Made by a program: the position numbers and the translations under genes
Shown here: piece by piece, positions 19,464 through 45,569 of the stretch
Numbering within the stretch: the stretch's first letter is position 1
Layout: the number at the start of each line of letters is the position of its first letter
Assembly (NCBI RefSeq): GCF_003691585.1
Contig: NZ_CP033169.1
Location: 1,364,001-1,428,000 of the forward strand
DNA length: 64,000 bases
Reading direction: 5' to 3'
DNA from: Biomaibacter acetigenes
Lineage (GTDB): Bacteria > Bacillota > Thermosediminibacteria > Thermosediminibacterales > Tepidanaerobacteraceae
Notes under the pieces: model-generated
Seen by the model: the letters and a program-made list of their open reading frames with translations, nothing else
Databases searched by the model: none
What the model was told of the DNA's origin: nothing

Positions 19464-20726
19464 GTGGGGGCTTATGTCATTACCGGAGGCAAGAGCCTTT
19501 CCGGCAAAATCAGGGTTCAGGGTTCAAAAAACTCCAGCCTTCCCATTCTTGCTTCTACATTGTTGAATGCAGGTAAAAATGTGATAAAAGATGTACCCAA
19601 CCTTAAGGATATAAAGGTAATGACCGATATTTTAGAGAAACTCGGGGCGAAAGTAAGTAAGAGTGGGAATATATTAGAGATGGATTCCAGCAACGTAAAT
19701 ATATGGGAAGTTCCGGAAGACTTGATGCGGGAGATGCGCTCTTCAATTGTCTTAATGGGCCCCCTGCTGGGAAGGTTCAAAAAGGTAAGGGTATCCTATC
19801 CGGGCGGATGTGAAATCGGTCCAAGGCCTATTGACCTTCATTTGAAAGGTCTTTCTCTCATGGGAGCTACATTGAGAGAAAAACACGGTTTTATCTACGC
19901 CGAAGCACCTGCATTGAGAGGAGCAGATATTCACCTGGATTTTCCCAGCGTGGGAGCTACCGAAAATCTCATGATGGCTGGAGTTCTGGCCAATGGTAAG
20001 ACCATAATTAGGAATGCCGCCAAAGAACCGGAAATAGTAGACCTCCAGAACTTTTTAAACAGGATGGGCGCTGATATTAAAGGAGCGGGAACCGATACCA
20101 TAAAGATAGATGGATGCGGCTCGGATGAGTTAAAACCGGTAGAGGATTATACGGTCATACCTGACCGCATTGTGGCTGGAACTTATCTTGTGGCAGCAGC
20201 CATTACCAGAGGACAGGTGACATTAAAAAATGTGGTGCTGGAACATATGGAACCTATCCTGGCAAAATTGCGGGAAACAGGATGCAAGCTTGAATGCTGT
20301 GATGATTGTATAAACTTAACGGCTGATACCACATTGAGGTCTCTAGACAGCTTGAGGACTTTACCTTACCCTGGATTTCCTACAGATATGCAGGCACCCA
20401 TGATGGCACTTCTCGCAACTGTAGAAGGCACTTCAATTTTAACCGAAACCGTATTTGAAAACCGCTTTAAACATGCGGAAGAATTGCGAAGGATGGGAGC
20501 CCATATCACCATAAATGGAAATACTGCCATTATTAAAGGTGTCAGGAAGTTAACGGGAGCCATAGTGGAAGCCAAAGATCTGAGAGCTGGAGCTGCCCTG
20601 GTCATTGCAGCTCTGGCTGCCGAGGGTGAAACCACGGTATATGGTTCGAGTCACGTGGAGAGGGGATATGAAAGGCTGGAAGACAACCTTTCTTCACTGG
20701 GGGCGGAAATTGTCAAAAAAAAATAA
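19464..20726 (+). CDS. murA: UDP-N-acetylglucosamine 1-carboxyvinyltransferase MurA
   Basis: Catalyses the committed step of peptidoglycan synthesis, transfer of enolpyruvate from PEP to UDP-GlcNAc. It has the two-domain inside-out barrel sequence pattern and 420 residues. Lys-Asn of the substrate site is seen in VQGSKNSSLP, and the active-site cysteine (site of fosfomycin alkylation in the family) is in GGCEIGPRPIDLH. GTG 19464 follows CGGAGGTG at 19448-19455. It is the last Mur enzyme of the operon and is followed by the frameshifted ftsQ gene after 66 bases of AT-rich sequence. Confidence 0.96.
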   Translation: MGAYVITGGKSLSGKIRVQGSKNSSLPILASTLLNAGKNVIKDVPNLKDIKVMTDILEKLGAKVSKSGNILEMDSSNVNIWEVPEDLMREMRSSIVLMGPLLGRFKKVRVSYPGGCEIGPRPIDLHLKGLSLMGATLREKHGFIYAEAPALRGADIHLDFPSVGATENLMMAGVLANGKTIIRNAAKEPEIVDLQNFLNRMGADIKGAGTDTIKIDGCGSDELKPVEDYTVIPDRIVAGTYLVAAAITRGQVTLKNVVLEHMEPILAKLRETGCKLECCDDCINLTADTTLRSLDSLRTLPYPGFPTDMQAPMMALLATVEGTSILTETVFENRFKHAEELRRMGAHITINGNTAIIKGVRKLTGAIVEAKDLRAGAALVIAALAAEGETTVYGSSHVERGYERLEDNLSSLGAEIVKKK

Positions 20727-34685: not shown

Positions 34686-34745
34686 TTGGGGACGTTCCTC
34701 CGCCTCCCCCAGCTGACTGCCCTAGAAGAGGAGGCGCTCCCCTAA
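34686..34745 (+). repeat. 60-bp dispersed palindromic repeat, copy A
   Basis: Starts TTGGGGACGTTCCTCC and ends GCTCCCCTAA. Nearly identical, in inverted orientation, to 38553-38613. The ends are partly self-complementary (GGGGACG versus CGTCCCC in copy B; CCTCC versus GGAGG), so it can fold as an interrupted hairpin, like REP or MITE-type repeats. It lies between pstB and phoU. Confidence 0.8.
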
Positions 34746-34766
34746 CATTAAAGGAGGTAATGTAAA

Positions 34767-35430: not shown

Positions 35431-35462
35431 AAAAGGCAGCCGAAAACCGGCTGCTTTTATTT
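35431..35462 (+). terminator. Rho-independent terminator after phoU
   Basis: Stem GCAGCCG / CGGCTGC (35436-35442 / 35448-35454) extended by flanking AAAA/TTTT, loop AAAAC, then TTTTATTTT. It starts just after the phoU stop codon. Confidence 0.9.
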
Positions 35463-35537
35463 TGTGTGTAGAATAAATTAAAAAATCCCAGGGCAACATA
35501 AGAATAGAAATTTCTTCAAATAGGCGAGGTGTTTTCC

Positions 35538-36248
35538 ATGCCCGTGGGAGTTATTTTACTGCTGGTAATAGCAGTGCTTATTTATTTTGGTCTTTTGCAT
35601 AGGGTTCTTGACAGGATGCATATGTCAGACAAAGTGGCTTTTGTCTTTATAGGAGCCATGATATTGGGCACATTTTTACCCAATATTCCCTTGAGTCCCG
35701 GATTATCAATAAACCTGGGAGGCGGGGTGGTGCCCATAGTTGTTGCCATATACCTGATTGCCACGTCAGATACGGGGCTGGAAAAAATGAGAGCCATTGC
35801 GGCATCGATTATTACGGGGATAGTGATATATACCGCAGGAAGACTGCTGCCCGCAGAGCCCGGGACCATGTTCATAGACCCCATGATAGCATTTTCCATC
35901 CTGGCAGGTATAGTGGCGTATATATTCGGCCGCTCCCGCCGGGGAGCTTTCATTGCGGGTATTTTTGGAGTGGTTATCAGTGATATTATATATGCCCTGG
36001 GTGTAACCACAAGGCCTATCGGCACGGTGATAGGCGGAGCGGGAGTGTTTGATGCGGCCATAATTGCCGGAGTTATAGGAGTGGCATTGTGTGAAATTGT
36101 GGGAGAAACCCGCGAGAGGCTCCAGGGTGGTACGGCCAAAGCAGACAAAAAGCCCCGGGAAAATCCGGAAATGGCCAGTATGCTGGTAAAGGATGAGGAA
36201 AATTCATCGAAAGAAGGTGAATATAGTAATGATGAAGGGAATAATTAA
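35538..36248 (+). CDS. DUF1614 family membrane protein
   Basis: Polytopic membrane protein of 236 residues with about six or seven hydrophobic segments and a charged cytoplasmic-looking tail (EDEENSSKEGEYSNDE type composition). It matches the DUF1614 family, which has no known function. ATG 35538 is preferred over GTG 35529 because GAGGTG lies 7 bases before it. Its 3' end overlaps the start of spoIIP by 20 bases, so the two are likely coexpressed; a link to sporulation is inference from that neighbourhood. Confidence 0.82.
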   Translation: MPVGVILLLVIAVLIYFGLLHRVLDRMHMSDKVAFVFIGAMILGTFLPNIPLSPGLSINLGGGVVPIVVAIYLIATSDTGLEKMRAIAASIITGIVIYTAGRLLPAEPGTMFIDPMIAFSILAGIVAYIFGRSRRGAFIAGIFGVVISDIIYALGVTTRPIGTVIGGAGVFDAAIIAGVIGVALCEIVGETRERLQGGTAKADKKPRENPEMASMLVKDEENSSKEGEYSNDEGNN

Positions 36249-37443
36249 AACAATAGCCGTAAGCCTGCTTTTTGCACTCACCTTATATACATTTTGCTCC
36301 ATGGCGCTGGCCGAAGAAGAGAAGGAAGATGGCTACTTTACTGTATATGAAGAAGGAACAAATAAGAAGATATTTGCCACCAGCATGATAGTAAGTATAG
36401 GCGACCAGTACCTGGACGAGGAAAATAATTTTTATGAAGTTGTAAAGGTTTCTGGAGATAAAGCATATGCCAGGTTTAAACAAAAGGTGGACATCGAGCG
36501 TTCGCTGGATTACCCCGAGGCTAAAGCTATGGCTGCGGCCGCTCAGGAGGATTATAACACTTTAAAAGCCGCGGAGCTCAAGAAAGATAGGGTTATTGCC
36601 ATATACCATACCCACAGCGATGAATCATATATACCTACCGATGGCACATCCAGCATTCCGTATAAAGGCGGGATATTTAAAGTCGGGGATTCCCTTACGG
36701 CGGCTTTGGAAAGAAAAGGTATAAAAGTCACTCATTCCTTGAAACCGCATGACCCCCATGATTCCATGGCATATCAAAGGTCGCGCCGTACTGCCATGGA
36801 CCTTTTGAAAAATGGGCCCGATGCATTGGTTGATGTCCATAGAGATGCGGTTCCTGCCGAAGAGTACCAGGGAAATGTAAATGGCCGTCCATTGGCCAAA
36901 GTTAGACTGGTGGTAGGGCGCCAGAACCCACAGATGAGCACCATCAACAACTTCGCATGGCAGTTGAAAGCCAATGCGGATAGAAAGTACCCGGGTCTGG
37001 TAAAAGGAATATTTTATGGCAAGGGTGGATATAATCAAGACCTTTTCCCTCACTCTATATTAATCGAAGCGGGAACTTATACCAACTCACGCTATAAGGC
37101 TGAGGATGGAGCCGATATCATGGCTGATGTTTTAGCAACTACCATATATGGTCCAGATTATCAAAAAAAGGTCACACCGGGTGGAGGAACCACGACACAG
37201 ATTCCCGGTGAAGGTGGTGGAGCCGCCAGAGCTCTGGGGTGGATTGTGGGCATCGCCATAGTAGGGGTAGGTGCATATATATTCATAAGTACCGGCGGAT
37301 GGAATGAACTTTCGGCTAAAGTAAGACGTTTTGCAGGTTCAGAATTTGCCAATTTCCTGGGAAATATAAGGAAAATAGGCAGTAGCAGTAAAAAAGGAGA
37401 GGATTCCGGGAAAAATGACAACGACAACGATATCAATGAATGA
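36229..37443 (+). CDS. spoIIP: Stage II sporulation protein P (peptidoglycan amidase/endopeptidase)
   Basis: SpoIIP degrades septal peptidoglycan with SpoIID and SpoIIM during engulfment. An N-terminal membrane/signal segment (residues about 5-22) precedes a catalytic domain with zinc-type residues in IYHTHSDESYIPTDG, the DVHRDA segment and LIEAGTYTNS. A second hydrophobic stretch near residues 335-355 (LGWIVGIAIVGVGAYIFI) and a charged tail lie at the C-terminus, a form seen in some clostridial homologues but not in B. subtilis SpoIIP. ATG 36229 or 36232 follows AAGGTGA. Confidence 0.92.
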   Translation: MMKGIIKTIAVSLLFALTLYTFCSMALAEEEKEDGYFTVYEEGTNKKIFATSMIVSIGDQYLDEENNFYEVVKVSGDKAYARFKQKVDIERSLDYPEAKAMAAAAQEDYNTLKAAELKKDRVIAIYHTHSDESYIPTDGTSSIPYKGGIFKVGDSLTAALERKGIKVTHSLKPHDPHDSMAYQRSRRTAMDLLKNGPDALVDVHRDAVPAEEYQGNVNGRPLAKVRLVVGRQNPQMSTINNFAWQLKANADRKYPGLVKGIFYGKGGYNQDLFPHSILIEAGTYTNSRYKAEDGADIMADVLATTIYGPDYQKKVTPGGGTTTQIPGEGGGAARALGWIVGIAIVGVGAYIFISTGGWNELSAKVRRFAGSEFANFLGNIRKIGSSSKKGEDSGKNDNDNDINE

Positions 37444-37452
37444 GGGGTTCTT

Positions 37453-38346
37453 ATGTCAAAATACCTGGCGGTGGTGGCAGTCGGTGTAGTTATGGGAGTA
37501 TTGGCCCGGCTCTATATGCTGCGGGTCGATTACAGGCAATATCCAAGCTACCCCCAGGGTTATTTGATACACTTATCACTGGGCTTGATAGCCGCATTTT
37601 TAGGTGCGGTAGCTGTACCCGCACTGATTGCCAGGGAATATACCGCCGTGACTTTTCTGGCGCTGGCGGCACAGCAGTTCCGAGACATACGGGAAATGGA
37701 ACGTAAAAGTCTCGAGAACATAGAGGATACCGAACTGGTCCCCCGGGGGTCGGCTTATATCGAAGATATTGCCAAGGCTTTTGAGTCAAGGAATTATCTT
37801 GCCATCTTAACTTCGCTTTTCACCAGCCTGGTTTTACAGTTTTCTAATAACATCCCTGCGGCCATTTTGGCCGGAATGGTAATTATCCTGGTTTTAAGCC
37901 TGATGGCCAGGAGAAAGAAAATAAGAGATATAGCTGTGGTAAGGCCCGCAAAAATCAACTTTGAAAATTCTCTCTTGTGCGTGGAGAACATCATAGTGAT
38001 GAATGTAGGTTATCCCGATTCCCGAAAAATAATAGAAGAAAAGGGTCTTGCGGTAATGATAGAACCCAAAAATGACAATGCCAGGGCAACTCTTTCCAAT
38101 GTGGGTCAGCGTCAGGCCATAGTCCATGATGTGGCATCGCTTTTGGGTGTAAAAAGGGATGTGACGGATGTAGACTTTATGCCCCTGGCAAGGATTGACC
38201 TTGATACCGGCAGGGTGGGCCTTATAATAGTGCCCATGGAACGGGATATGGAAAGCCTGGTGGAAGCGGTTAAAAGAGTCCCCGTCCTGGAAAGTTCCAG
38301 GCGCAAGCCTCTGGAGTCCTTCGCCGGGAAACAAGCTGCCGATTAG
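37453..38346 (+). CDS. YIEGIA-family membrane protein
   Basis: Membrane protein of 297 residues belonging to the family named after its YIEGIA motif, here YIEDIA (AYIEDIAKAFESRNYLAIL). The first half has three to five hydrophobic segments; the second half is a soluble domain with VENIIVMNVGYPDSRKIIEEKG and DVASLLGVKRDV. The family occurs in spore-forming Clostridia and has no proven function. It follows spoIIP by 9 bases and is followed by its known small partner gene (capping complex subunit), which supports membership in a sporulation module. Confidence 0.85.
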   Translation: MSKYLAVVAVGVVMGVLARLYMLRVDYRQYPSYPQGYLIHLSLGLIAAFLGAVAVPALIAREYTAVTFLALAAQQFRDIREMERKSLENIEDTELVPRGSAYIEDIAKAFESRNYLAILTSLFTSLVLQFSNNIPAAILAGMVIILVLSLMARRKKIRDIAVVRPAKINFENSLLCVENIIVMNVGYPDSRKIIEEKGLAVMIEPKNDNARATLSNVGQRQAIVHDVASLLGVKRDVTDVDFMPLARIDLDTGRVGLIIVPMERDMESLVEAVKRVPVLESSRRKPLESFAGKQAAD

Positions 38347-38355
38347 GTGATAGTT

Positions 38356-38550
38356 ATGGACAATGTTGGAATAAAAGAGGCCATTCTGGCTGTTGTAACT
38401 CTGGATAAACAACAACCCGCATCAGGAGTACCCGTTTTTTATGCAAAAGATGAAAAGGAACGGGATAAAATAGCGATGTACCTTTCTAAGATTCTTTCAG
38501 CCATGACGCATGACCTTGAAAACGGAACTTATATTATTGTTAGACATTAA
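38356..38550 (+). CDS. Capping complex subunit for YIEGIA
   Basis: Small soluble protein of 64 residues that regularly accompanies YIEGIA-family genes and is annotated as their capping complex subunit. It contains EAILAVVTLDKQQPASGVPVFYA-like sequence and a C-terminal DLENGTYIIVRH. ATG 38356 is preferred over GTG 38347, which directly abuts the upstream stop; TAGGTG gives the ribosome binding site. The biochemical meaning of 'capping' is not established. Palindromic repeat copy B begins 3 bases after its stop codon. Confidence 0.82.
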   Translation: MDNVGIKEAILAVVTLDKQQPASGVPVFYAKDEKERDKIAMYLSKILSAMTHDLENGTYIIVRH

Positions 38551-38552
38551 GG

Positions 38553-38613
38553 TTAGGGGACGCACCTCCTTTTCTAGGGCAGTCAGCTGGGGGAGGCGGA
38601 GGAACGTCCCCAA
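38553..38613 (-). repeat. 61-bp dispersed palindromic repeat, copy B (inverted relative to copy A)
   Basis: The reverse complement starts TTGGGGACGTTCCTCC and ends GCGTCCCCTAA, matching 34686-34745 with only a few differences and one indel. The two copies are 3.8 kb apart in opposite orientation, both in short intergenic gaps. Its ends GGGGACG and CGTCCCC are complementary, and so are the inner CCTCC and GGAGG. Confidence 0.8.
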
Positions 38614-38631
38614 CTAATTGGAGGAGTTGTT

Positions 38632-39093
38632 TTGAAAGTTATATATTCCTGTTACTGGGGCAGCTACCTGGCGGTGGTAGCTGCTTCATTGCATCTTGGA
38701 CTCTTAAAAGGCAATGACGACTTATCAAATGAAAAAATATTAAACCTACCCTTTTTTGGGAAAATAAAAAAAAGGGACCTCGGAGAAATGACATTCATTG
38801 GGACTGACAACCGGGGCCGGGAAATATATGTGATGGGCTCAAAAAAGTCCGGCCGAATAATCGAAAGGACTCTCAACGGTTTTGCGCAAATCTATGGGCT
38901 AGAAAAACACACGGTGGATTTTATTGATTTGATGAAATACAATAATTTTTATACTTGCTGCGGGACATTTATGATTCATAAATTAGGTCTTAAAAATGCC
39001 GGTATGGCAGTGCTTATCTGGGGAATAAAAAAAAGCTTTGGCCGGTTGAGAAATCTAGTGAGCAAGGTCTTGAATGAACCGGCATATTTTTAG
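38632..39093 (+). CDS. DUF3189 family protein, first copy
   Basis: A 153-residue protein of the DUF3189 family, found in spore-forming Clostridia, function unknown. It has the N-terminal family pattern YSCYWGSYLAVVAASLHLGLL and a middle GTDNRGREIYVMGSKKSG. TTG 38632 follows GGAGGAG by 5 bases. A paralogue with similar pattern is encoded 14 bases downstream, so the pair comes from an old tandem duplication. Cysteine positions at the N-terminus (C in CYWGS) are conserved between copies. Confidence 0.8.
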   Translation: MKVIYSCYWGSYLAVVAASLHLGLLKGNDDLSNEKILNLPFFGKIKKRDLGEMTFIGTDNRGREIYVMGSKKSGRIIERTLNGFAQIYGLEKHTVDFIDLMKYNNFYTCCGTFMIHKLGLKNAGMAVLIWGIKKSFGRLRNLVSKVLNEPAYF

Positions 39094-39107
39094 GAGAGTA
39101 TGTTTTT

Positions 39108-39581
39108 ATGAAAATTTTCTACTACTGTTACGGCAGTGCCCATTCTTCAGTGGTGGCTGCATGTATCCATCTGGGAATACTTCCAACCGACAGGCTTCCT
39201 TCCGCAGAAGAGTTTAAACGCCTTCCGCATTATGATAAAACAGATTCATATGAAATAGGAACGCCGTTTTTTATGGGTATAGATGAATACGGAGCGGAAA
39301 TTTTCATAACGGGAATGACAGGTGAAAGGCAACTGGTTAAAAAGGCCATATACAGTTTTTTAAAAAAATGTGGGATAGATGTAAACGACCTGATGATGGT
39401 GAATGCCCTTAATAATGTTAACCTCAAGACAAAAATAGGAGGTTTCATCTCGAGACGTCTGGGCCTTGTTACAATAGGCAGGCCTCTTACCATTAAAGGA
39501 ATACAGGAAAAATATGCAGGATTTGTGACATTGGTGGAGAACACAAAACGGGAAGAGCGGAAGCGCCTAAATAAAACTTGA
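39108..39581 (+). CDS. DUF3189 family protein, second copy
   Basis: A 157-residue paralogue of the preceding gene. It shares the pattern CYGSAHSSVVAACIHLGILP, then MGIDEYGAEIFITGMTGER and a C-terminal RRLGLVTIGRPLTIKGIQ. Overall similarity between the two copies looks like about 30 percent by eye, so the duplication is not recent, and this copy looks closer to the family consensus (CYGSAHSSV). No catalytic motif is recognised. It is likely cotranscribed with the first copy. Confidence 0.8.
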   Translation: MKIFYYCYGSAHSSVVAACIHLGILPTDRLPSAEEFKRLPHYDKTDSYEIGTPFFMGIDEYGAEIFITGMTGERQLVKKAIYSFLKKCGIDVNDLMMVNALNNVNLKTKIGGFISRRLGLVTIGRPLTIKGIQEKYAGFVTLVENTKREERKRLNKT

Positions 39582-39650: not shown

Positions 39651-40970
39651 ATGGGGAAAAAAGCAATTATAAAGGCCGTCGACAGGAATAGTATTGCCGG
39701 AAAAATAGGGCTTTTGCCGGGAGATGAGATATTAAGCATAAATGGGCAGGATTTTCGGGATTTTCTGGAATATAAGTTTTTGATGACCGATGAAAAAATA
39801 AAATTGAAGGTTAAAGGCAATGATGGAAGTATAAAAGAATTCACTGTATACAAAAGTTTCGATGAGGGTCTTGGAGTGGAGTTTGAAAATCCGCTGATGG
39901 ATGATATAAAAAGATGTAAAAACAAGTGTATTTTCTGCTTTGTGGATCAGATGCCCCCGGGCCTTCGGCAATCCCTTTATGTAAAGGATGACGATTATCG
40001 GCTTTCCACGGCTTTCGGAACTTTTGTCACCCTTACAAATCTCTCGCAGCAAGAATTAAATAGAATCGTGAAACTCAGTTTGAGTCCGATATATGTCTCT
40101 GTTCATGCTACTTCTCCGGAAGTTAGAAATTTTATGATGAAAAATCCCCATTCCGGTGAAGTTTTAAACGTACTCAAGTTTTTAACTTCGCACCACATCC
40201 TGGTACACTGCCAGATTGTATTATGCCCGGAAATAAATGACGGCAGGATACTGGAACAGACACTGATGGACCTTGCGAACTTGTGGCCTCACATTTTGTC
40301 CATTGCCGTAGTGCCTGTAGGTCTTACAAAGTTCAGGGAAAGGCTTTATCCATTGAGAGCTTTTACAAAAGATGAAGCCGATGATGTGATAAATTTCATA
40401 GAGGATTTTCAAAAGCAAAGCCTTAAGCGGTTCAAGACCCGGCTGGTATTTGCCGCTGATGAGTTTTATTGTATAGCCCAAAGACAGGTTCCCGCATATG
40501 AAACTTATGAAGAATTCTATCAACTTGAAAATGGTGTGGGTATGATGGCATTGTTGAAAAGACAAATGGAACAAAACATGGTAAAGCTTCCACCCGCACT
40601 GCCCCGGAGACGGAAAGTAGCCATAGCCACCGGGGTTTCGGCCCATAAATTCTTGCGGCAAATTCTAAACCCCCTGCAGAAGGTAAAAGGTCTGGAGTAT
40701 ACAGTTTACCCCGTGGTTAATAATTTTTTCGGCAATTCCGTGACGGTGGCAGGTTTAATTACCGGTGCGGACCTTGCGGAACAGTTGAAAGGCAAAGAAA
40801 AGGGAAGTGTCATCCTGATACCTGATGTTATGTTGAGGGATGGGGACATTTTTTTGGATGATTTAACAGTAGAAGATGTAGGTAATTTTCTTGAAAGCAA
40901 ACTTGAAGTAGTTAAAGTGAATGGGAAAGATTTTTTAAATGCCATACTCGGTAAAAATGGGGGGATATAA
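39651..40970 (+). CDS. DUF512 family protein: PDZ domain fused to radical SAM-like domain
   Basis: Protein of 439 residues. An N-terminal PDZ-like domain (DRNSIAGKIGLLPGDEILSINGQ) is followed by a radical SAM-type cysteine motif CKNKCIFC (CxxxCxxC) near residues 94-101 and then FVDQMPPGLRQSLYVKDDDYRLS, the hallmark of the DUF512 family (DUF512 is the C-terminal part). The family is nearly always next to der (engA) in Clostridia, as here, where the genes abut. Its substrate is unknown; a role in ribosome or tRNA biogenesis with Der has been suggested only by gene neighbourhood. Confidence 0.9.
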   Translation: MGKKAIIKAVDRNSIAGKIGLLPGDEILSINGQDFRDFLEYKFLMTDEKIKLKVKGNDGSIKEFTVYKSFDEGLGVEFENPLMDDIKRCKNKCIFCFVDQMPPGLRQSLYVKDDDYRLSTAFGTFVTLTNLSQQELNRIVKLSLSPIYVSVHATSPEVRNFMMKNPHSGEVLNVLKFLTSHHILVHCQIVLCPEINDGRILEQTLMDLANLWPHILSIAVVPVGLTKFRERLYPLRAFTKDEADDVINFIEDFQKQSLKRFKTRLVFAADEFYCIAQRQVPAYETYEEFYQLENGVGMMALLKRQMEQNMVKLPPALPRRRKVAIATGVSAHKFLRQILNPLQKVKGLEYTVYPVVNNFFGNSVTVAGLITGADLAEQLKGKEKGSVILIPDVMLRDGDIFLDDLTVEDVGNFLESKLEVVKVNGKDFLNAILGKNGGI

Positions 40971-42293
40971 ATGAGTTTTACCGTTGCCATAGTAGGACGC
41001 CCCAATGTGGGAAAATCTACTCTTTTCAACAGGATAATAGGAAAGAGAGTTTCAATAGTTGACGATAAACCCGGAGTTACCAGAGATAGAATTTACGGTC
41101 AAATAGAATGGAATGGAAAAAAATTAACCGTGGTTGATACTGGAGGTGTAGAACCCGCCTCCAGAGATATTATTCTCAATCAGATGAAGCGGCAGGTGGA
41201 TTTTGCCATTGATACCGCCGACGTTATAGTTTTTCTGGTGGATGGTAAGGAAGGCCTGACTTCTGCCGATGAGGACGTGGCCAGTATATTGAGAAAGAGC
41301 GGAAAACCGGTTTTACTGGTGGTCAATAAAGTAGATAATTTTAGAAATGTGCCCGAAAATTACGAATTCTACAGGTTGGGTTTCGATGATATTATATTTA
41401 TATCGGCGTCCCATGGTCTGGCGGTAGGAGATTTACTGGACAGGTTGACGGATTATATAAAAGATATGCCGGAGGAGCCCGAAGATGAAGATATAATCAA
41501 AGTTGCGGTAGTGGGCAAACCCAATGTAGGTAAGTCATCCCTCGTTAATGCCATACTGGGCGAAGAAAGGGTCATTGTCAGTGATATACCAGGAACCACC
41601 CGTGATGCCATCGATACCTTTTTTGAGGTGGATGGCAAAAAGATGGTTTTTATAGATACTGCGGGAATGAGAAGAAAGAGCAAGGTAAAGGAAGATGTGG
41701 AATTTTACAGCAATGTTAGAGCCCTGGGAGCCATAGAGAGGTCGGATGTGGTGCTTATGGTCCTGGATGCCACCCAGGATATATCCGAACAGGATAAAAG
41801 AATAGCCGGAATTGCCCATGAAGCCGGAAAAGCCATTATCGTGGTTGTGAATAAGTGGGACCTTATAGAAAAAGACGAACATACTATGAATCAATTCAGG
41901 GAAAAGATAAAAACAGAATTTGCATTCATGCAGTATGCTCCCACACTTTTTATTTCCGCCAAAACCGGGCAGAGGGTCCACCGTATAATTGAACTCATAA
42001 ATTTTGTCATGGACCAATATACTTTCAGGGTGAAGACCCCCCTGTTGAATGACCTGGTGCGGGAAGCTACGGCCATTGTGGAACCTCCCAGCATCAAGGG
42101 GAAAAAATTAAAAATATATTATGCGGTTCAAACTGGTATAAAACCCCCTACCTTTGTGTTCTTCATAAATGATTTGAAGCTCTTTCATTTTTCATATGCC
42201 AGGTTTCTTGAAAATAAACTCAGGGAGACTTTCGGCCTGGAGGGCACTCCTGTGGTAATAAAGGGCAAGGAGAAAGGGGAGAAAAACCGGTGA
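40971..42293 (+). CDS. der: Ribosome biogenesis GTPase Der (EngA)
   Basis: Double-domain GTPase required for 50S subunit assembly. The two G domains have P-loops GRPNVGKST (residues about 8-16) and GKPNVGKSS (about 182-190), DTGG and DTAG switch motifs, and NKVD and NKWD specificity motifs. A C-terminal KH-like domain follows (LKIYYAVQTGIKPPTFVFFIND). It is 440 residues long. The start directly abuts the DUF512 stop codon, and the end overlaps plsY by 4 bases. Confidence 0.98.
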   Translation: MSFTVAIVGRPNVGKSTLFNRIIGKRVSIVDDKPGVTRDRIYGQIEWNGKKLTVVDTGGVEPASRDIILNQMKRQVDFAIDTADVIVFLVDGKEGLTSADEDVASILRKSGKPVLLVVNKVDNFRNVPENYEFYRLGFDDIIFISASHGLAVGDLLDRLTDYIKDMPEEPEDEDIIKVAVVGKPNVGKSSLVNAILGEERVIVSDIPGTTRDAIDTFFEVDGKKMVFIDTAGMRRKSKVKEDVEFYSNVRALGAIERSDVVLMVLDATQDISEQDKRIAGIAHEAGKAIIVVVNKWDLIEKDEHTMNQFREKIKTEFAFMQYAPTLFISAKTGQRVHRIIELINFVMDQYTFRVKTPLLNDLVREATAIVEPPSIKGKKLKIYYAVQTGIKPPTFVFFINDLKLFHFSYARFLENKLRETFGLEGTPVVIKGKEKGEKNR

Positions 42294-42886
42294 TAGTGTT
42301 AGGTTTAATTGCGAGCTATTTTTTAGGTTCCATCTCCACTGCATATGTCCTGGTAAAACTAATGAAGGGTATTGACATAAGGACTGTGGGAAGCAGGAAC
42401 GCGGGAGCTACAAATGTCCAGAGGGTTTTGGGAACCGGTCCGGCACTGCTGGTATTTGTTCTTGATGTATTAAAGGGAGTTTTAGCGGTAATGATAGGCA
42501 GGCTCGTGGGAGGACCCATTATTTCACTCTGGTGCGGCATTGCAGCCGTGGTGGGCCACAACTGGCCTCTGTTTTTCGGATTGCGCGGAGGAAAGGGCAC
42601 GGCTACCAGCTTCGGAGTACTGTGGGCCATCATGCCGAACATCGCCCTAATCATCACGGTGGTGGGTTTTACTACCATTGCCATTACAAAGTATGTTTCC
42701 CTGGGGTCCATACTGGGTGCGCCGCTTCTTTTGATTCTGGTGATAGTTACAGGCAAGTCCTGGCATTATATAATTTTTGCTTTTATTTTAATGTCAATGA
42801 CACTCTACAGGCACAGGGAAAATATTGTGAGATTGCTGGAAGGAAGGGAATCCCGCCTGGGACAAAAGGTAAAAAGGGTTAAGTAA
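42290..42886 (+). CDS. plsY: Acyl-phosphate glycerol-3-phosphate acyltransferase PlsY
   Basis: Integral membrane acyltransferase that makes lysophosphatidate from acyl-phosphate and glycerol 3-phosphate, the first step of phospholipid synthesis. Family motifs are GSISTAYV, SRNAGATNVQR and GHNWPLFFGLRGGKGTATS. It has 198 residues and about five to six membrane segments. GTG 42290 overlaps the der stop. Its substrate glycerol 3-phosphate is made by GpsA, the next gene. Confidence 0.96.
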   Translation: MIVLGLIASYFLGSISTAYVLVKLMKGIDIRTVGSRNAGATNVQRVLGTGPALLVFVLDVLKGVLAVMIGRLVGGPIISLWCGIAAVVGHNWPLFFGLRGGKGTATSFGVLWAIMPNIALIITVVGFTTIAITKYVSLGSILGAPLLLILVIVTGKSWHYIIFAFILMSMTLYRHRENIVRLLEGRESRLGQKVKRVK

Positions 42887-42900
42887 TGGAGGGTATAGAA

Positions 42901-43932
42901 ATGAAAGCTGCAGTTGTAGGTGCGGGTAGCTGGGGTACAACACTGGCCAATGTACTCGCCCAAAATGGTATTACAGTTGCTTTATGGGCGCGAAGGGCCG
43001 AACTGGCTGAGGAGATAAAAAATTACAGGGAAAATAGGACTTATCTTCCGGGAGTTAAAATATCAAGCAGCATAAACGTTTCCTCCGACCTGGAACAAGT
43101 AATACATGATTCCAATTATGTGGTGATGGTGGTCCCATCTCACTCCATGAGCGCAATATGCAGACAGCTTGGTAAATACATAATAGATGAGGCAATAATT
43201 ATCAGCGCTTCCAAGGGTCTGGAAAGTGATACATTCAGAAGAATGTCCCAGGTCCTGGCGGATGAACTGCCTTCGCGGTTTTCTGAAAGAATAGCCGTTC
43301 TTTCAGGCCCAAGCCATGCAGAGGAAGTTTCAAAAGAGCTTCCTACGACGGTGGTGGCAGCTTCAGCCAAAAGGCAGGTGGCAGAACAGGTACAGGATAT
43401 TTTCATGAATGCTTACTTTAGAGTATATACTAATCCCGATGTGGTGGGAGTTGAATTAGGTGGAGCATTAAAAAATGTTATTGCCATCTGTTCGGGCATT
43501 TCCGATGGGCTCGGTTTTGGAGACAATACCCGGGCCGCACTGATGACACGTGGTATTGCGGAGATAACAAGATTAGGGGTAAAGTTAGGGGCAAAACCCG
43601 CTACCTTTGGCGGGCTGTCGGGTATAGGTGATCTGATTGTTACATGTAGCAGTTTGTACAGCAGGAACAGGAGAGCCGGTATGGAAATTGGCCGGGGTAA
43701 AACAGTGAAAGAAGTTGTGGAATCGACAAAAATGGTCATCGAGGGTATCAATACTACAAAAGCCGCTTATTTGCTGGCAAATAAGCTTCATATAGAAATG
43801 CCCATTACAGAACAGGCTTATGAGGTGCTTTTTCAAAATAAGAGTCCGCTGGATGCCGTTTCAACGCTCATGAAACGGCAGGGCAAACATGAAATCGAAG
43901 ACATGGTTTTCGAAAAGTCTGTAGAATGGTAA
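42901..43932 (+). CDS. gpsA: NAD(P)H-dependent glycerol-3-phosphate dehydrogenase GpsA
   Basis: Reduces dihydroxyacetone phosphate to glycerol 3-phosphate, the PlsY substrate. The N-terminal dinucleotide-binding loop is VGAGSWGTTLA; the catalytic lysine lies in ELGGALKNVIAI and the substrate region in NTRAALMTRGIAE. ATG 42886 and ATG 42901 are both in frame; GGAGGG at 42888-42893 selects 42901, which gives the usual start MKAAVVGAGSWG and about 343 residues. A terminator overlaps its 3' end. Confidence 0.96.
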   Translation: MKAAVVGAGSWGTTLANVLAQNGITVALWARRAELAEEIKNYRENRTYLPGVKISSSINVSSDLEQVIHDSNYVVMVVPSHSMSAICRQLGKYIIDEAIIISASKGLESDTFRRMSQVLADELPSRFSERIAVLSGPSHAEEVSKELPTTVVAASAKRQVAEQVQDIFMNAYFRVYTNPDVVGVELGGALKNVIAICSGISDGLGFGDNTRAALMTRGIAEITRLGVKLGAKPATFGGLSGIGDLIVTCSSLYSRNRRAGMEIGRGKTVKEVVESTKMVIEGINTTKAAYLLANKLHIEMPITEQAYEVLFQNKSPLDAVSTLMKRQGKHEIEDMVFEKSVEW

Positions 43933-43957
43933 AAACGTGGTTTTCCACGTTTTTTTC
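43932..43957 (+). terminator. Rho-independent terminator after gpsA
   Basis: Perfect 9-bp stem AAAACGTGG / CCACGTTTT with loop TTTT, followed by more T residues. It starts at the gpsA stop codon. Confidence 0.93.
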
Positions 43958-43967
43958 ATTTTTTAAG

Positions 43968-43996
43968 TAATATTCATGGGACCATGTCATATATAT
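43968..43996 (+). promoter_or_regulatory. Possible SigE promoter for spoIVA
   Basis: TAATATT (43968-43974), 13 bases, then CATATATAT (43988-43996) resembles the SigE pattern KMATATT / CATACANT at slightly short spacing. spoIVA is SigE-dependent in B. subtilis. The local AT repeat makes other alignments possible. The following bases to 44087 show no further signal beyond the ribosome binding site. Confidence 0.4.
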
Positions 43997-44087
43997 ATAT
44001 TGTATATAAAAAGTGAACTACCCCTCCTCTTTAAATAAAATTAAAAAAACGTGGAAAGGGGGGGAAAGAAAATAAAAAGGAGGGAAA

Positions 44088-45569
44088 ATGATGGAAAAGT
44101 TTGACCTATTCAGAGATATTGCCGAACGGACCGGAGGGGATATTTATATAGGCGTGGTGGGACCAGTAAGAGCCGGTAAGTCAACATTTGTGAAAAAGTT
44201 TATGGAATTGATGGTAATACCTAACATTCCGGATTCCAATGATAAAACCAGAGCAAAGGATGAACTTCCGCAGGCCGGTGCGGGCAGGACCATAACCACA
44301 GCCGAACCCAAGTTTATCCCCAGTGAAGCCGTAGAGATAACCTTTAAAGAAAATATCAAATTTAGAGTGAGACTGGTGGATAATGTGGGCTTTACGGTAA
44401 GGGGCGCCCTGGGATATGAAGATGAAAACGGCCCGCGCATGGTTTCAACTCCCTGGTTTGAAAAGGAAATTCCTTTTCAGGAAGCTGCAGAAATAGGCAC
44501 CAGGAAAGTTATAGAAGAACACTCGACTATAGGCCTGGTAATAACGACAGACGGGTCCATCACGGAAATACCCCGGGAAAACTATGTGCAGGCTGAAGAA
44601 AGGGTAGTAGAAGAACTAAAAGCAATCGGCAAGCCCTTCGTTATAGTATTAAACACCGCAAGACCAATGGATGAAAGAACAATGGACCTCAAGGAAATAC
44701 TCGAGTCCAAATACGATGTGCCGGTTATGCCAATGGATTGTCAGGATTTGACCACTGAAGACATTTATGCCATTCTGGAAGAAGTACTTTATGAGTTCCC
44801 GTTGATGGAAATTAATATACGCCTGCCAAAATGGGTAGAAGTGCTGGAAAAAGAACACTGGCTCAGGAAACAGTTTGAGGAAACCATCAGGAATACAATT
44901 AAAGATGTGTACCGGCTGCGGGATATGGAAAAAACCCTTGCCGTTTTTAATACCTTTGACTTTTTAGACAATGTAAAATTGAAAGAGATGAACCTTGGGC
45001 TTGGAACTGCGGAAATAGAAATGGAAGCAAGGAAAGATCTTTTCTATAAAGTACTGAGTGAGATGGCCGGCATTTCCATAACGGGAGACCACCAGCTGAT
45101 GAAATTGATGAAAGAACTAACTGTGGCTAAAAAGGCCTATGACAAAGTTTCAAAGGCCCTTGAGGATGTTCAAAAAGTCGGTTACGGCATAGTTCCTCCA
45201 CAGCTTAATGAATTGACCCTCGAAGAGCCGGAGATTATAAGACAGGGGTCTAAATTCGGAGTTAAATTGAAAGCCGTAGCTCCCTCCATCCATATGATAA
45301 GAGCAGATATCCAGGCTGAAGTTTCTCCAATTATCGGTACAGAAAAACAAAGCGAAGAACTTATAAACTACCTAATGAACGAATTTGAAAACAATCCGGC
45401 TAAAATCTGGGAGACCAATATCTTCGGCAAGTCCTTGAACGACCTGGTGCGGGAGGGTATTCAAAACAAATTGTTCAGCATGCCCGAATCCGCCCAAGCC
45501 AAACTGCAGGAAACCCTGCAGCGTATAGTTAATGAAGGAAGCGGAGGACTGATTTGCATAATACTATAA
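44088..45569 (+). CDS. spoIVA: Stage IV sporulation protein A (coat morphogenetic ATPase SpoIVA)
   Basis: ATPase that polymerises on the forespore surface as the base layer of the spore coat. The Walker A motif GPVRAGKST is near residues 25-33; the TRAFAC-like GTPase-derived N-terminal domain and the sporulation-specific C-terminal domain (MAGISITGDHQLMKL, then SGGLICIIL-like end) are intact. The length of 493 residues is normal. ATG 44088 and ATG 44091 both follow AAGGAGGG. It is likely transcribed on its own by SigE, being flanked by terminators. Confidence 0.96.
   Translation: MMEKFDLFRDIAERTGGDIYIGVVGPVRAGKSTFVKKFMELMVIPNIPDSNDKTRAKDELPQAGAGRTITTAEPKFIPSEAVEITFKENIKFRVRLVDNVGFTVRGALGYEDENGPRMVSTPWFEKEIPFQEAAEIGTRKVIEEHSTIGLVITTDGSITEIPRENYVQAEERVVEELKAIGKPFVIVLNTARPMDERTMDLKEILESKYDVPVMPMDCQDLTTEDIYAILEEVLYEFPLMEINIRLPKWVEVLEKEHWLRKQFEETIRNTIKDVYRLRDMEKTLAVFNTFDFLDNVKLKEMNLGLGTAEIEMEARKDLFYKVLSEMAGISITGDHQLMKLMKELTVAKKAYDKVSKALEDVQKVGYGIVPPQLNELTLEEPEIIRQGSKFGVKLKAVAPSIHMIRADIQAEVSPIIGTEKQSEELINYLMNEFENNPAKIWETNIFGKSLNDLVREGIQNKLFSMPESAQAKLQETLQRIVNEGSGGLICIIL

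Follow-up and report, generated by a model that had tools for sequence, protein, structure and literature searches.

The DNA analysed here, a 64,000-nucleotide stretch of the Biomaibacter acetigenes contig NZ_CP033169.1 (hereafter the window), carries six consecutive plus-strand genes for a DUF1614/YphA-like protein, a SpoIIP, YIEGIA (YphB), the small protein YIEGIA_cap (hereafter cap) and two DUF3189 proteins (Table 1). Open reading frames (ORFs) and Pfam matches confirmed all of these proteins. An earlier note on this DNA had described a compact one-strand cluster with tight gaps except at a repeat, and the spacing agrees: from DUF1614 onwards it amounts to an overlap, 9, 0, 81 (the repeat lies inside) and 14 bases, followed by 69 bases to a DUF512 gene. 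The first protein scores above the cut-off of both DUF1614 (42.0 bits; cut-off 23.9) and YphA (PF24124, 34.4 bits; cut-off 28), the second contains the PF07454 domain (209 bits; cut-off 24.4), and the third matches PF14045 and is adjoined by cap. DUF1614, SpoIIP and YIEGIA are membrane proteins, as the note had supposed. The cluster is a real, conserved and sporulation-bound operon, the most interesting part of which is the SpoIIP (SpoIIP2 below) with its partner DUF1614.

Table 1. Features of the cluster and its borders (window coordinates).
Feature	Position	Strand	Basis
Terminator-like hairpin at the end of the pst/phoU unit, bordering the cluster upstream	35432..35458	+	Consensus scan
Sigma-F-type promoter, GAATA-N15-GGGCAACATA	35471..35500	+	Pattern in window and related loci
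DUF1614/YphA-like multi-pass membrane protein; ATG probably 35538	35529..36248	+	Pfam
Second SpoIIP (SpoIIP2): signal/N-terminal hydrophobic segment, amidase domain, C-terminal transmembrane (TM) segment, basic tail	36229..37443	+	Pfam, alignment, tree
YIEGIA (YphB) membrane protein with a helical N-terminal half and an alpha/beta domain at the C-terminus	37453..38346	+	Pfam 425 bits; AlphaFold2 (AF2) predicted local distance difference test (pLDDT) 91.6
YIEGIA_cap small protein	38347..38550	+	Pfam 97 bits; adjacency to YIEGIA
Palindromic REP/MITE-like element, dispersed in the genome, between cap and DUF3189; outside the module	38551..38630	+	Genome matches, hairpin
DUF3189 copy, degenerate motif (no HSS, no GRP)	38632..39093	+	Pfam 151 bits; motif scoring
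DUF3189 copy, intact motif (CYGSAHSS ... GGFISRR ... GRP)	39108..39581	+	Pfam 191 bits; AF2 pLDDT 94
Conserved downstream block: DUF512/radical-SAM-like, der, plsY, gpsA, spoIVA	39651..45569	+	Pfam, related loci

SpoIIP2 had been taken for the spoIIP of this genome, which it is not: it is a paralogue, a second copy that belongs to a separate clade and has kept its catalytic residues. Two SpoIIP genes are present, and the higher-scoring one lies outside the cluster in a gpr-spoIIP-lepA context, which is the classical spoIIP locus; we take its neighbours, from their translations, to be gpr-like and lepA-like flanks, preceded by comEC, holA and rpsT and followed by hemW and hrcA. With the canonical place next to gpr and lepA occupied by this other gene, SpoIIP2 also departs from the canonical single N-terminal anchor by its second, C-terminal TM segment. 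For a wider comparison we fetched 80 related loci with YIEGIA (the best 80 of 530 candidates, hence biased to closer ones, with many contigs ending early) and set 62 YIEGIA-adjacent SpoIIP copies (61 from these loci plus the window) against 20 copies hand-picked from elsewhere in genomes, 18 of them from genomes with at least two SpoIIP and two (G031 and G150) from single-SpoIIP genomes; a gpr homologue lies near 12 of the 20. In a tree of the SpoIIP domain the 62 and the 20 are split with support of 98/88, the division requiring one change in 97% of bootstrap trees, with some of the 20 on long branches. Two loci hold a further, tandem SpoIIP2 copy upstream of DUF1614 (L095:5468-6799 and L111:5441-6823), both inside the cluster clade.

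The division is matched by architecture. A hydrophobic segment C-terminal to the catalytic domain is found in all 62 cluster copies and in none of the other 20, and the tail behind it carries a net positive charge in 55 of the 62; an AxA-like site close to the end of the N-terminal segment is seen in 42/62 cluster and 7/20 other copies. Both groups share the invariant residues H141, E144, H216 and E292 (ORF numbering from 36193); D190, R196, R198, Y225 and N245 are invariant in the cluster group alone. Judging from the motif, H141 and H216 are probably equivalent to H142 and H222 of Clostridioides difficile SpoIIP, a protein stated to need its two catalytic histidines (passage in PMC6221140). 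We read SpoIIP2 as a putative exported enzyme, anchored C-terminally and with its basic tail in the cytoplasm. It shares the amidase domain and the invariant His and Glu residues with the SpoIIP of the DMP engulfment machine (PF07454), but differs from it in its clade, its extra C-terminal helix and basic tail, its own conserved residues, its location away from gpr-lepA and its sigma-F-type promoter. Among the listed literature titles and abstract beginnings, none names a C-terminally anchored class.

The distribution of these families was followed in 149 genomes of the GTDB phylum with a completeness of at least 90%, and co-occurrence was put to Fisher tests that ignore kinship between genomes. 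SpoIIP is present in 132 genomes, and 113 of these 132 have at least two copies, whereas the passages of the literature consulted treat clostridial SpoIIP as one protein. DUF1614 is likewise found in 113 genomes, 111 of which have at least two SpoIIP; each occurs alone in two (G046 with G144, and G073 with G096, respectively). YIEGIA and cap occupy an identical set of 71 genomes, DUF3189 is present in 98 (97 of them within the set with at least two SpoIIP), and spoIVA, a marker of spore formation, in 131. The 17 genomes without SpoIIP yielded no YIEGIA, cap or DUF3189; one of them (G144) has a weak DUF1614 match. The expectation that all of these families occur mainly in spore formers is upheld within the 149 genomes, but DUF1614 also has matches in the archaeal controls Sulfolobus and Methanosarcina and is therefore not spore-specific. 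Two near relatives (G017 and G025) have spoIVA, two SpoIIP and DUF3189 and no YIEGIA or cap, an absence that may reflect either loss or patchy inheritance.

Gene order was conserved as well. Throughout the 80 loci all family matches lie on one strand and cap adjoins YIEGIA, so the order asserted in the earlier note is not a matter of chance. Where the left flank is complete (70 loci), the order DUF1614-SpoIIP-YIEGIA is found 54 times, both first genes are absent 16 times and a single one of them is never present; further along, DUF3189 is found in 49, der in 73 and spoIVA in 58 of the 80. YIEGIA with cap and DUF1614 with SpoIIP2 each travel as a pair, and the pairs often occur without each other, which makes one single module doubtful: the frequent separation of YIEGIA-cap from SpoIIP2 may mean two complexes. 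In three of the four Bacilli loci tested, from Paenibacillus and Metabacillus (L122, L138 and L145; L135 and L146 were outside the test), YphA directly precedes YIEGIA and SpoIIP2 is lacking; in the fourth, from Cohnella (L139), YphA was not found before YIEGIA. The neighbourhood is therefore the clostridial form of the YphA-YIEGIA(YphB)-cap-der-gpsA-spoIVA block, whose order is the same in the Metabacillus and the two Paenibacillus loci but which there lacks SpoIIP2, DUF3189 and DUF512.

A conserved promoter stands at the head of the operon. The motif G[ACT]ATA-N15-GGGNAANNTA lies about 38 bases 5' of the ATG, and in this strict form has 19 matches in the 80 loci (1,289,540 bases), all on the plus strand and all a short way upstream of the operon's first gene, that is, before DUF1614 in 17 loci and before YIEGIA in two loci without DUF1614 (L084 and L107); the minus strand gave no match and the reversed pattern one. 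Since the strict GGG pattern, like a 'sigFG' model, was devised after the first matches had been seen, fairer tests are a cross-validated matrix and where, and on which strand, the matches lie. Trained on one half of the loci, the matrix recognised 16/28 and 13/28 operon starts in the other halves (29/56 altogether), compared with 3-16% of control upstream regions (spoIVA 2/59, der 6/74, DUF512 4/65, plsY 9/58, gpsA 5/59). The sigma-F consensus of Bacillus subtilis is GYATA-N15-GG..A..TR; uncalibrated as it is in this phylum, it exceeded shuffles in 18 of the 56 operon starts and in few of the controls (spoIVA 0/59, der 3/74, DUF512 1/65, plsY 0/58, gpsA 2/59). SigE and SigA promoters did not rise above background at the operon start, the sigma-E motif being found in 3/56 starts, no better than in controls, and in 11/59 regions before spoIVA. 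It is likely, though not proven, that sigma-F reads the operon promoter; the earlier note, which looked for SigE transcription, probably had both the cell and the sigma factor the wrong way round. No clear promoter class emerged ahead of the 20 spoIIP copies from outside the cluster. A second strict match in the window (20362-20391, minus strand) falls inside an opposite-strand ORF (19464-20726) and is probably due to chance.

Partial views of published work are in keeping with a forespore promoter. A conserved G upstream of the -10 element is said to mark sigma-F promoters in C. difficile, where spoIIP itself is under sigma-F and, by quantitative reverse-transcription PCR, partly under sigma-E, and B. 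anthracis is described as having two spoIIP genes, under sigma-F and sigma-E (PMC3789822, in part). The C. difficile gene and the sigma-F gene of B. anthracis would have in common with SpoIIP2 that their product is made in the forespore; the C. difficile gene differs in belonging to the gpr operon (CD2470-CD2468), the canonical locus. B. subtilis YphB is also stated to be sigma-F regulated (passage in PMC12017682). A literature search returned no paper on yphA with sigF in B. subtilis, nor on seaA with sporulation in that species.

The YIEGIA model consists of five helices followed by an alpha/beta domain and has no convincing fold match. Its C-terminal domain (residues 153-290) bears a weak likeness to MscS-type channels and to other alpha/beta domains; such channels make up 9 of 50 VIA rows, with Z of 5.1-5.9 and several root-mean-square deviations (rmsd) over 20. 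An MscS-like channel, suggested by the domain order and these weak matches, can serve as a lead only: against 20 MscS proteins of relatives the hhalign probability was 0.1%, and no sequence match was found in the PDB.

DUF3189 occurs as two copies in 31 of the 50 DUF3189-bearing loci (49 plus the window). In 25 of these 31, a copy with the motif C-Y-G-x-x-H-S-S ... SRR ... GRP is paired with one from which the motif has disappeared; the rest comprise three loci with both copies intact and three with both scored as degenerate, one copy in the latter differing mainly by R to K. In L090 (5008-5961) and L148 (10090-11049) two DUF3189 domains are fused, with the intact half first and the degenerate half second. 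The pattern suggests a heterodimer of an enzyme and a pseudoenzyme. The model of DUF3189 gave no Foldseek match under 0.001, and its best VIA row, the arginine phosphatase YwlE (Z 6.2, rmsd 3.2, 93 aligned), was tied with unrelated proteins including GTPases. Low-molecular-weight protein phosphatases carry the signature CX5R; in DUF3189, C7 is invariant (alignment A2) and position C+6 is Ser or another residue and not Arg, and we rejected this assignment on account of the weak fold match and the missing signature. No paper on DUF3189 was found in the literature search.

The most likely function of the cluster is that of a forespore-membrane peptidoglycan-remodelling module: an operon read by sigma-F, in which SpoIIP2-DUF1614, YIEGIA-cap and DUF3189 would remodel peptidoglycan from the forespore side beside the usual SpoIIP. 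We give this reading a probability of about one half. From its promoter motif, the operon would start to be expressed in the forespore directly after polar division. SpoIIP2 would cross the membrane by means of its N-terminal segment and stay tethered to the forespore membrane through its C-terminal helix, a topology that would turn its amidase domain towards the peptidoglycan between the two cells. DUF1614/YphA, which co-occurs with it, would be its obligate multi-pass partner, and YIEGIA and cap, co-occurring and adjacent, would make up another obligate complex of that membrane. The DUF3189 pair, predicted to be soluble, with one intact and one degenerate copy, would probably act as a heterodimer on the cytoplasmic side. 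Together they may remodel septal or germ-cell-wall peptidoglycan alongside the usual SpoIIP; that they act at the engulfing septum is plausible, though unproven. A complex of SpoIIP2 made from a forespore-type promoter, cutting the cell wall from the forespore side, is a testable idea.

Several observations count against this reading. The sigma-F assignment depends on the B. subtilis consensus, and the regions expected to serve as positive controls did not show it (spoIIR 2/30, with start codons guessed by script, and gpr 1/12), so the sigma assignment is uncalibrated in this phylum. In the B. acetigenes genome the five other strict matches precede no recognisable sporulation gene, and the total of six compares with two for the reversed control. 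YIEGIA with cap lacks a second SpoIIP in three genomes, and a second SpoIIP lacks YIEGIA in 45. Finally, a passage of PMC12017682 describes B. subtilis YphB as dispensable, being essential for neither sporulation nor germination.

The neighbourhood has been noticed before, and the view that its function is undescribed is only partly true. A passage of a 2015 paper (PMC5898192) reports DUF1614 (arCOG02159), SpoIIP and yphB together and proposes a membrane-remodelling complex. These same three genes and that proposal are common to both studies; the paralogy and anchor of SpoIIP, cap, the DUF3189 pair and the promoter, none of which figures in that passage, are added here. A bolder version of our reading, offered tentatively and with less confidence, is that most spore formers of the phylum have two SpoIIP machines, one per cell, with a sigma-F-made and C-terminally anchored SpoIIP2-DUF1614 cutting the septal peptidoglycan from the side of the forespore and linked to the YIEGIA-cap complex (possibly a cap-closed pore) and to the DUF3189 enzyme/pseudoenzyme pair. 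Models differ as to whether clostridial SpoIIP acts from the mother cell or the forespore (PMC6934232, in part). Were the two clades to represent cell-specific machines, that question would become directly testable, and a definite site and stage of action could be assigned to DUF1614/YphA, YIEGIA, cap and DUF3189.

The best-surviving alternative, possible but on balance doubtful, places the action later, at the spore inner membrane: SpoIIP2 would trim the germ-cell wall or cortex in maturation or germination, YIEGIA-cap would control permeability or germination, and early sigma-F expression would serve only to load the membrane. The dispensability of YphB fits such a role, as do published passages that list a YIEGIA protein among the spore inner-membrane proteins of B. 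cereus (PMC8624511) and report that pulsed light depleted one more than any other membrane protein of B. pumilus spores (PMC12017682). These passages concern YIEGIA and not SpoIIP2, however, and no germination phenotype is known. We consider it improbable that the neighbourhood lacks a joint function altogether, being an old sporulation and housekeeping block ordered for expression with YIEGIA-cap, DUF1614-SpoIIP2 and DUF3189 in separate pathways; although the pairs do part from each other across genomes and loci, and the order of the housekeeping genes der, plsY and gpsA is likewise maintained, the pairs are strict, spacing is tight, and the promoter at the operon head also precedes YIEGIA in two loci that lack both DUF1614 and SpoIIP2 (L084 and L107). 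A mother-cell engulfment operon under SigE, as first proposed, would account for a SpoIIP domain with all its catalytic residues but is very improbable given the other spoIIP at gpr-lepA in the same genome and a sigma-E motif that stays at background here, in contrast to spoIVA.

Upstream, the cluster is bordered by pho/pst genes that end in the terminator-like hairpin after phoU. The palindromic element in the cap-DUF3189 gap (about 62 nucleotides, GGGGACG...CGTCCCC) forms a hairpin and has a second window copy on the opposite strand (34686-34746); ten matches occur in the genome, four of which, the cap-DUF3189 copy among them, extend over at least 60 bases at 95% identity or more. The gap is smaller in the near relatives L069-L072. 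The element is probably a mobile repeat that was inserted there. Downstream, a protein with PDZ, radical-SAM-like and DUF512 regions (39651-40970) separates the operon from der in most clostridial loci and is absent from the Bacilli loci; its match to the cyanobacterial model TIGR03279 is below the cut-off.

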